This document shows positions 8,592 through 9,206 of a DNA stretch of 24,431 nucleotides, in pieces. Both the position numbers and the translations under genes were made by a program. The notes beneath the pieces are model-generated. The model made no database searches and was not told where the DNA came from. It saw only the letters and a list, made by a program, of their open reading frames with translations. Every line of letters starts with the position of its first letter. Positions within the stretch are counted from its first letter, which is position 1. This DNA comes from a virus, in the IMG/VR virus record IMGVR_UViG_3300032291_000772, positions 1 through 24,431 of that record, one strand, 5' to 3'.

Positions 8592-9206
8592 TTAAAAAAT
8601 ATCGTTATACGGCTTTACTGTAATCTCATCTTCCCATCTTTTATCTCTTAGCCAGCGTTCAGCATCCTTACGAAATTTGCGTTCTGTATTCTTGGCTTGT
8701 AGGGTAGCTTTGTGAAGTATGGTTTTCACTAGCTCACCATCTGGCTTAATACTTTTCCAAATCTTAAAAGCATTAGCTTTTCCTACTGGCTTGTCGTAAG
8801 CCTTCCAAAAAGAATCAAACTCATTGGAATACAAATTCGCTTTTGTCTCTGTCTCTGTCTCTGTCTCTGTCTCTGTCTCTGTCTCTGGGATAGCAACTTG
8901 ATAGCAGTCTGCTAGCATCGTGCTAGCATTAAGAAAAAATCCTTTATCCATCAATGGTTTAAGTCCTGATCTAATCTCTTTTTCAGTCAAATGCAACCTA
9001 AAAACTAACTCATCAAGGCTAGCATCAAAAATACCCTCTTTTGACTCGCTTGCTAACAACCACAACAAAGGCGCTAGCGCTTTGCTAGCAAGTGGCAAGC
9101 ACATAAAATCTCTGTCTCTAAGCAAGTCATGGTGCAACTTAATCCAAGGTGGCAAACGATCTTTGTAATGCTGAAATTCAGACCATTTTTTAGGTATAAG
9201 TTTCAT
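8592..9206 (-). CDS. Replication initiator / phage O-like protein with (Glu-Thr)7 linker
   Basis: The 204-residue protein has three parts. Residues about 15-95 look like a winged helix ('WIKLHHDLLRDRDFMCL', 'LDELVFRLHLTEKEIRSGL', 'LMDKGFF'), as in phage replication organisers. Residues 108-121 are seven Glu-Thr pairs from a hexanucleotide repeat. Residues about 128-195 hold 'FDSFWKAYDKPVGKANAFKIW' type features and 'RKFRKDAERWLRDKRWED', a domain common at the end of phage replication proteins. This is the layout of lambda O: DNA-binding head, linker, partner-binding tail. As in lambda O, the gene contains short repeats resembling an origin (8889-8932, 9073-9105). Start: AAGGA five bases before the ATG. 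It follows the Cro-like gene by 1 base. Confidence 0.7.
   Translation of the reverse strand: MKLIPKKWSEFQHYKDRLPPWIKLHHDLLRDRDFMCLPLASKALAPLLWLLASESKEGIFDASLDELVFRLHLTEKEIRSGLKPLMDKGFFLNASTMLADCYQVAIPETETETETETETETKANLYSNEFDSFWKAYDKPVGKANAFKIWKSIKPDGELVKTILHKATLQAKNTERKFRKDAERWLRDKRWEDEITVKPYNDIF
8845..8886. repeat. Hexanucleotide tandem repeat, 7 perfect copies
   Basis: GTCTCT is repeated seven times without error (42 bases); read on the minus strand it encodes seven Glu-Thr pairs. The unit is six bases, so gain or loss of copies would change linker length by two residues without breaking the frame. It ends two bases from the iteron array. Confidence 0.95.
8889..8932. repeat. Four 11-bp iterons, candidate replication origin
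   Basis: The consensus G[A/C]TAGCANNNN occurs four times head to tail at exactly 11-base steps (TAGCA at 8891, 8902, 8913, 8924), with no gap. Eleven is not a multiple of three, so the period cannot come from the protein code. About one helical turn per unit would put all sites on one face of the DNA. The array is followed by an A/T-rich stretch (8929-8940). It lies in the middle of the O-like gene, as the iterons do in lambda. Binding by the protein encoded here is inference. Confidence 0.65.
9073..9105. repeat. Second iteron cluster (three units, 11-bp step)
   Basis: GCTAGCG (9073), GCTAGCA (9084) and a degenerate GCAAGCA (9095) follow each other at 11-base steps. Single copies also occur at 9018 (GCTAGCA) and 9052 (GCTAACA). 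Five exact GCTAGC hexamers fall within 180 bases of this gene. The copies sit in different codon frames, which argues against codon bias as sole cause. Confidence 0.5.

Follow-up and report, generated by a model that had tools for sequence, protein, structure and literature searches.

A predicted replication origin of 11-bp iterons and a hexamer tract within a phage initiator gene

The replication operon and the fold of the initiator

The window, as we call the whole stretch of viral DNA analysed (24,431 nucleotides, record IMGVR_UViG_3300032291_000772), carries on its minus strand a run of genes in the order Cro/YdaS-type regulator, replication initiator, DnaB-type helicase and methyltransferase frames. 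The regulator at the head of this operon (9208..9405, minus strand) matched Pfam YdaS_toxin (E=2.1e-15) and P22_Cro (E=1.2e-06). The replication initiator gene (8592..9206, minus strand) encodes 204 aa and was recognised from its ORF, from a match of residues 1–199 to PHROG 26426 'replication protein' (E=9.5e-34) and from a structural model. Its presumed partner is a 306-aa protein with a DnaB-type helicase C-terminal domain (7327..8247, minus strand; Pfam DnaB_C, E=3.7e-17). Further along the run, two minus-strand frames, 6374-7330 and 6403-7326, overlap nearly end to end. The first matched PHROG 363 (E=6.8e-67) and the cytosine methylase family PF00145; the second matched PHROG 1008 'DNA methyltransferase' (E=6.4e-31), and its tblastn relatives in phages are full-length. 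The two may form a dual-coding gene pair of ~920 bp, and the matches of one frame can echo the conservation of the other. Elsewhere in the window, three long ORFs of high glycine content that contain short tandem repeats (2214-3104, 21672-22661 and 23027-23986) probably encode tail or fibre proteins, a guess from their composition.

The initiator is laid out as a putative DNA-binding N-terminal domain (codons 1–~100), a linker and a helical C-terminal domain (codons ~121–204). In the AlphaFold model the N-terminal domain is winged-helix-like (helices 39-53, 64-71 and 75-87, strand 91-93), the C-terminal domain is helical and residues 103-120 are mostly disordered. No Pfam family matched the 204-aa protein at E<=1, RepA_N and DUF1376 (PF07120) included, a sequence profile searched against the PDB gave weak rows only, and Foldseek against the PDB returned no match at E<=0.001 for either the whole protein or the N-terminal domain alone. 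No plasmid homologue was detected at E<=0.01. With VIA-align, the best four rows for the N-terminal domain were 4pql, 5kbj, 4pt7 and 4pta (Z 6.4-6.9, which is weak and below 8; rmsd 4.0-4.8 across 75-80 residues), and the DnaD N-terminal domain 2v79 scored Z 4.5. The four entries carry initiator or Rep structure titles, and we take them to be RepA_N proteins from structural work on RepA_N initiators. The model is therefore suggestive of an N-terminal domain nearest to the RepA_N plasmid Rep fold, with the reservation that a Z below 8 could reflect a common arrangement alone. The initial annotation had called the gene lambda-O-like; homology to O found no support, given the lack of a Pfam match, a best PHROG match to 26426 and RepA_N proteins as the nearest folds.

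The iteron array and the adjoining hexamer tract

Positions 8889-8932 of the plus strand read GATAGCAACTT GATAGCAGTCT GCTAGCATCGT GCTAGCATTAA, that is, four contiguous G[AC]TAGCANNNN units at a step of exactly 11, just as first annotated. In the coding sense of the minus-strand initiator gene the array runs from 8928 to 8885 as iteron 1 (TGCTAGCACGA, 8918..8928), iteron 2 (TGCTAGCAGAC, 8907..8917), iteron 3 (TGCTATCAAGT, 8896..8906) and iteron 4 (TGCTATCCCAG, 8885..8895), all on the minus strand, the final bases of the last one overlapping a hexamer tract. The array sits mid-gene, ~280 bp past the initiator start codon, in a Cro/initiator/helicase operon, and the proposal that its relative place is that of the lambda iterons holds good. 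The motif TGCTAKC occurs 11 times across the whole window versus 8.66 expected, with as many copies in 28 of 100 shuffles, so there is no overall enrichment; nine of the 11 copies, however, fall within 8889-9090. The lag-11 score of the window was 26. Synonymous recodings that keep the peptide averaged 20.9 (p=0.005, the lowest value attainable with 200 recodings). A chance origin of the 11-bp array was rejected on this clustering together with the recoding null. As the peptide itself carries part of the 11-base period, the earlier statement that the coding frame cannot create it was nearly, not wholly, right.

A second cluster of sites, on the minus strand at 9048..9089, lies in the part of the gene that encodes the N-terminal domain. 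Two of its sites are GCTAGC, at 9084-9089 and, 11 bp away, at 9073-9078; a third, TTAGCAAGC at 9048-9056, is degenerate. An isolated GCTAGC is found at 9018..9023, also on the minus strand. The cluster encodes the class-defining peptide LASKALAP; on the coding strand its sequence also allows a terminator-like hairpin. Neither these GCTAGC sites (9018, 9073 and 9084) nor the hexamer tract had been annotated.

The tract (8844..8887, minus strand) follows the array directly on its 3' side on the coding strand, with no gap, as a perfect (GAGACA)n repeat (TGTCTC x 7.3 on the plus strand) encoding an ETETET linker. It is the strongest element of the locus, and we propose it as an opening or strand-capture element. 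The A-rich run that had been noted beside the array is present at ~8931-8941; in the coding sense it is 5' of the array and codes for a conserved 'FF'. Its preservation among relatives of the gene is weak, as Phe is encoded by TTT in 71/93 cases there versus 199/339 elsewhere, and the longest T run within the 24 nt of the site is <=3 in 27/61 relatives. It was rejected as the partner element of the array for this reason, the conserved partner being the hexamer tract on the opposite side.

An ordinary AT-rich weak region was also rejected as a description of the window's tract, whose GC is 0.50 compared to 0.384 for the remainder of the gene and whose stability slightly exceeds that of the gene (mean nearest-neighbour energy -1.344 versus -1.288; the corresponding values for lambda are -1.124 and -1.397). 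As the window's tract is not weak DNA, melting there is not its obvious role. Over the relatives, mean tract GC is 0.475 with gene GC ranging from 0.35 to 0.64 (correlation 0.37), and in 50/58 the tract falls below the gene mean in stability. No self-folding was predicted for either strand of the window's tract, (GAGACA)n or (TGTCTC)n. The promoter scan gave a score not clearly higher than that of shuffles, and readings of the site as an RNA element or a tRNA were rejected, as no Rfam match and no tRNA were found. Cumulative GC skew, proposed at the outset as a check on the origin, has a local minimum near 9.0 kb; this agreement is confounded, since the turn coincides with the switch in gene direction.

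Conservation of array and tract, and exchange of domains

Relatives were collected by an alignment scan with the N-terminal domain, from which 80 viral loci were fetched among at least 534 confirmed, and from bacterial genomes, in which 18 loci were fetched from 99 candidate stretches (Bradyrhizobium, Limnoglobus, Zavarzinella, Dyadobacter, Gemmatimonadaceae and others). Together with the loci found earlier and the window, the set comprised 113 records, 106 of them with the N-terminal domain, and 62 remained after dropping those >=90% identical. In the 61 relatives with a recognisable tract, the best four-unit array was scored at lags 6 to 19 against 200 synonymous recodings, a null that draws on small codon pools. 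The best repeat period was 11 in all 61, and the lag-11 score exceeded the recodings at p<=0.05 in 60/61 and at p<=0.01 in 56/61. One relative, L112, failed the test (p=0.49), and in L111 no tract was recognised. Absence of the array from close relatives that keep the protein, named at the outset as a refuting observation, was not what we saw, as it is kept at the DNA level in 60/61 scored relatives. An 11-bp unit had been regarded as unusual; it turned out to be the rule across relatives of the N-terminal domain and common in other initiator families. Allowing for the register chosen, the distance from the start of iteron 1 to the first AGAG is 42 bp in most relatives. Short-period tandem rows numbered 70 in 41,937 bp of rep genes (53/61 loci) versus 13 in the flanks (286,227 bp), where an array with several overlapping rows contributes each of them to the count.

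When the 62 genes were classified by motif count, 53 fell into a GCTAGC class, four into a GATATC class (Xanthomonas phage PBR31, here L014, with L015, L109 and L110), four into a CCGTWACG class (L103-L106) and one into none, the step of 11 being unchanged. A different N-terminal domain comes with a different iteron sequence at the same 11-bp step. Residues 38, 40, 45, 84, 99 and 105 differ between the iteron classes; these differences gave no assignment to DNA contact, as several of the residues are themselves encoded by iteron DNA and the rarer classes were represented by only two and three sequences. Codons 36-57 of the GCTAGC class (n=53) hold a mean of 2.34 sites versus 0.34 expected by synonymous recoding; within codons 31-60 of the eight genes of the other two classes, the class's own core is absent in six and occurs once in L109 and L110. 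As the second cluster is enriched in the GCTAGC class, the peptide LASKALAP...LLAS is itself encoded by iteron-like DNA.

Conservation at the DNA level would also fit an operator. Initiators commonly repress themselves, and Rep bound to the iterons as an operator could keep transcription of the operon low, with replication starting elsewhere; the cluster at 9048-9089, as a possible terminator-like hairpin enriched in the GCTAGC class, would suit such a role. However, the array lies in mid-gene, ~280 bp past the start codon, and at a fixed distance from a long tract of which an operator has no need, and the layout matches the annotated origins of lambda and P22. We consider autoregulation as the only function unlikely, and an origin remains our preferred reading of the array.

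The tract was picked by a regular expression, and this selection was checked against synonymous recoding: the expression matches 61/62 genes, with 9.3 expected. AGAG occurs 7.2 times per 45 nt of tract versus 1.1 under recoding (p<=0.01 in 59/61, p<=0.05 in 60/61), the exception being L012, which has a GAAGAAAAAG stretch instead. Codon choice differs between the tract and other parts of the genes, Glu being encoded by GAG in 308/334 cases within the tract compared to 152/366 elsewhere, and Thr by ACA in 151/156 compared to 76/262. Other relatives read the AGAG pattern in different frames, as EKSKSK or STEYRVQ. The tract is conserved as DNA, not as peptide, and against codon usage. Its length varies between close relatives, as the near-identical L001 (5271-5360; 200 versus 204 aa) has fewer GAGACA copies than the window has at 8844-8887.

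An exact 23-mer of the tract, searched in viral contigs as the AGAGAC scan, gave at least 119 stretches, and among those listed 84 lie in ORFs with the window's N-terminal domain and 35 elsewhere. Among the latter, L247, L258 and L262 start at or just before the tract, the upstream part being missing; L267 and L277 have it in seemingly unrelated ORFs; L203, L224 and L242 have no 80-codon ORF in the tract's sense; and the other 27 are, by eye, initiators with different N-terminal domains, L196 having four TCGCAAACGGA-type units directly 5' of the tract. For these 27 plus L242 (n=28) the best lag was 11 in 10, 12 in eight, 10 in five and another value in five. Upstream of AGAGAC tracts, lag 11 was best in 79 of the 107 distinct stretches among the matches listed. 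PHROG 26426 matched 84/118 of the ORFs with an AGAGAC tract among the matches listed, and matches to further initiator families may be partly due to the linker itself. In L203 the tract (~218-240) adjoins GCTAGC repeats in the opposite arrangement, and this locus may be a broken origin or one that lies outside any gene.

Three further hexamers were scanned. CAGGAA, picked as a composition-matched negative control, gave at least 120 stretches and failed as a control, as it proved to be another initiator tract: among the matches listed, 76/116 of its ORFs matched PHROG 1701, a DnaD-like helicase loader, the frames were QEQE in 80, GTGT in 32 and RNRN in eight of 120, and the best upstream lag was 11 in 49/110 and 12 in 43/110. 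Further hexamers may be initiator tracts too. AAAGGC gave 44 stretches, with lag 11 best in 4/36, and GACGAA at least 120, in which the codon-multiple lags 9, 12, 15 and 18 predominated and lag 11 was best in no more than 3/107 of those listed. Among the matches listed, the ORFs of these two controls belong mainly to tail, scaffold, capsid or reductase families, and replication-initiation families account for 1/38 AAAGGC members and for 1/60 each for GACGAA. Among the matches listed, most AGAGAC and CAGGAA tracts are located in initiator genes of phages, where they occupy all three frames and follow 11- or 12-bp arrays; this holds for neither of the two composition-matched controls.

These scans bear on selection at the protein level, under which the repeats would be there for the repeated peptide and the flexible, charged linker that they encode, and the pattern in the DNA would be a by-product or the result of microsatellite slippage. 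ETET is the frame of 111/119 AGAGAC tracts among the matches listed (QRQR five, RDRD three), the linker is disordered in the model, and copy number is unequal between the window and its near-identical relative, all of which could be accommodated by such selection. On the other hand, codon choice in the tract differs strongly from that found elsewhere in the genes, other frames are used, and most tracts of GACGAA, the acidic control, occur in genes of other kinds and lack 11-bp arrays. Protein-only selection on the linker was rejected on the codon and frame data, and we regard this explanation of the locus as highly improbable.

The first protein search had returned ten loci, six of which (L002, L003 and L006-L009) share the C-terminal domain of the window's initiator and, by alignment, carry another N-terminal domain; both of those tested, L002 and L003, matched Pfam DUF1376 (PF07120). 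A scan with the DUF1376 domain found at least 80 loci, 56 of them non-redundant, with a tract pattern in 52 and none in four. Among the matches listed, these loci have AACCC-rich arrays, with a best lag of 11 in 32/52, followed by an AACC-rich tract with 5.5 AACC per 48 nt versus 2.4 under recoding. DUF1376 phage initiator-like proteins, YdaU from the Rac prophage among them, likewise have intragenic 11-bp arrays plus a tract and draw on the same C-terminal pool; they differ in an N-terminal domain unrelated or very distant by sequence and in a tract of AACC type, that of the window being of AGAG type. In the Rac prophage of E. coli K-12, ydaU (L316, 120-977) contains TGTTCAAACA-type repeats and then an AGATAA/AGATAC-like stretch, seen by eye, and is a candidate for an intragenic origin in a cryptic prophage carried by a laboratory strain. 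Upon clustering of the C-terminal domains by single linkage, which is permissive, and with the DUF1376 proteins cut at a fixed residue, 51/57 AGAG-type and 52/56 DUF1376-type proteins fell into four mixed clusters. As the members of these mixed clusters have different arrays and tracts, iterons and tract go with the N-terminal and not with the C-terminal domain.

Such evident exchange of domains would also be expected if the tract were a recombination joint, a shared low-complexity linker for exchange of N- and C-terminal modules that has spread in that way and is not kept for replication. Tracts are indeed common to families with different N-terminal domains, and annotated recombination features of lambda lie just past its ori. 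But a joint of this kind predicts one tract type per C-terminal pool, whereas the AACC-type tracts of DUF1376 proteins share the same C-terminal domains, and it leaves the fixed distance between array and tract unexplained. As the whole explanation it appears doubtful, with little probability left to it, and as an additional role it may hold alongside an origin.

Comparison with known origins and proposed mechanism

Intragenic origins are known in a few model phages and plasmids. Like the window, the lambda O gene (ori-lambda) and P22 gene 18 have several mid-gene iterons followed by a strand-asymmetric stretch on the coding strand: the annotated iterons of lambda gene O precede an A/G-rich stretch on that strand, and the annotated origin in P22 gene 18 precedes an A-rich one. 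In TP901-1 rep, repeats are also followed by an A-rich stretch, as judged by eye. The lambda operon resembles that of the window, with a Cro-type gene before the initiator and a helicase function after it. The lambda iterons, in contrast, are annotated as 18 bp at steps of 20-24 bp, those of the window being 11 bp and contiguous; the lambda tract is AT-rich and weak, that of the window a hexamer repeat of GC 0.50 that shares the strand asymmetry; and O-like families are not among the PHROG matches listed for the window's initiator, which has no Pfam match. Purine asymmetry of the lambda origin is treated in the part of PMC5043065 that was available.

According to the available part of PMC5703833, the N-terminal domain of the RepA_N protein Rep of pSK41 binds four mid-gene boxes, the linker is encoded by the ori and the C-terminal domain is helical, and pPR9 represents a natural swap of N-terminal domain plus ori against a kept C-terminal domain. 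RepA_N initiators thus resemble the window in having four boxes in mid-gene. The box DNA described in that part of PMC5703833 is A+T-rich, with no hexamer tract mentioned there, whereas the window's tract consists of hexamers, and the window's protein has neither a Pfam match nor a plasmid homologue to link it to this family. A resemblance of another kind is to strand capture.

DnaA-trios are short repeats adjoining double-strand sites, and the window likewise has short repeats beside double-strand sites. Plasmid Rep proteins, according to the available parts of PMC5043065 and PMC4081077, capture a single strand once the region is opened. The regions in both of these systems are AT-rich, in contrast to the window's tract, whose unit is six bases and whose single-strand contact is putative. 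In open-access titles and the beginnings of abstracts we found no description of an 11-bp-step array joined to a hexamer tract, and older reviews of replication modules might hold parts of it; the tract sequences and peptides gave nothing on topic by title in the open-access literature.

We consider it probable that the locus is a replication origin specific to one initiator and situated within the gene for that initiator, in the manner of lambda. As we picture it, the winged-helix-like N-terminal domain of Rep would bind the four GCTAGC/GCTATC iterons, and with these 11 bp apart, about one helical turn, we propose that four protomers would align on one face of the DNA. The Rep-iteron complex would then open the adjacent hexamer tract or capture one of its strands, be it (GAGACA)n or (TGTCTC)n, and the C-terminal domain would recruit the DnaB-type helicase encoded two genes downstream, whereupon theta replication would begin at this origin. 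Array, tract and N-terminal domain make up one cassette, exchanged jointly against a shared pool of C-terminal domains. The analysis shows the anatomy, its conservation as DNA, the fixed spacing, the iteron changing along with its domain and the exchange of domains; Rep binding, opening, recruitment of the helicase, origin activity and the choice of strand belong to the proposed part of this picture. For the tract, we favour a role as a sequence that is read or a site of strand capture over simple melting, with about an even chance of being right. More tentatively, and at somewhat less than even confidence, phage initiators with intragenic origins may use a two-part code, in which double-strand iterons spaced by a helical turn are combined with a lineage-specific six-base tract (AGAGAC, CAGGAA, AACC-NTA and others) that would be more than a melting element, namely a strand-specific reading site, a phage counterpart of the DnaA-trio, kept against codon usage in any frame.

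Judging from their sequences, many other phages seem to share this layout of intragenic array plus tract. If this reading is true, sequence could show, to the base, where replication starts in a very large number of uncultured phages. Natural variation, in which the iteron goes with the domain and the tract with the family while the C-terminal domain is constant, provides a ready-made set for asking how initiators open DNA without AT-richness, and a review (PMC5043065) in its title calls strand opening a question still open.
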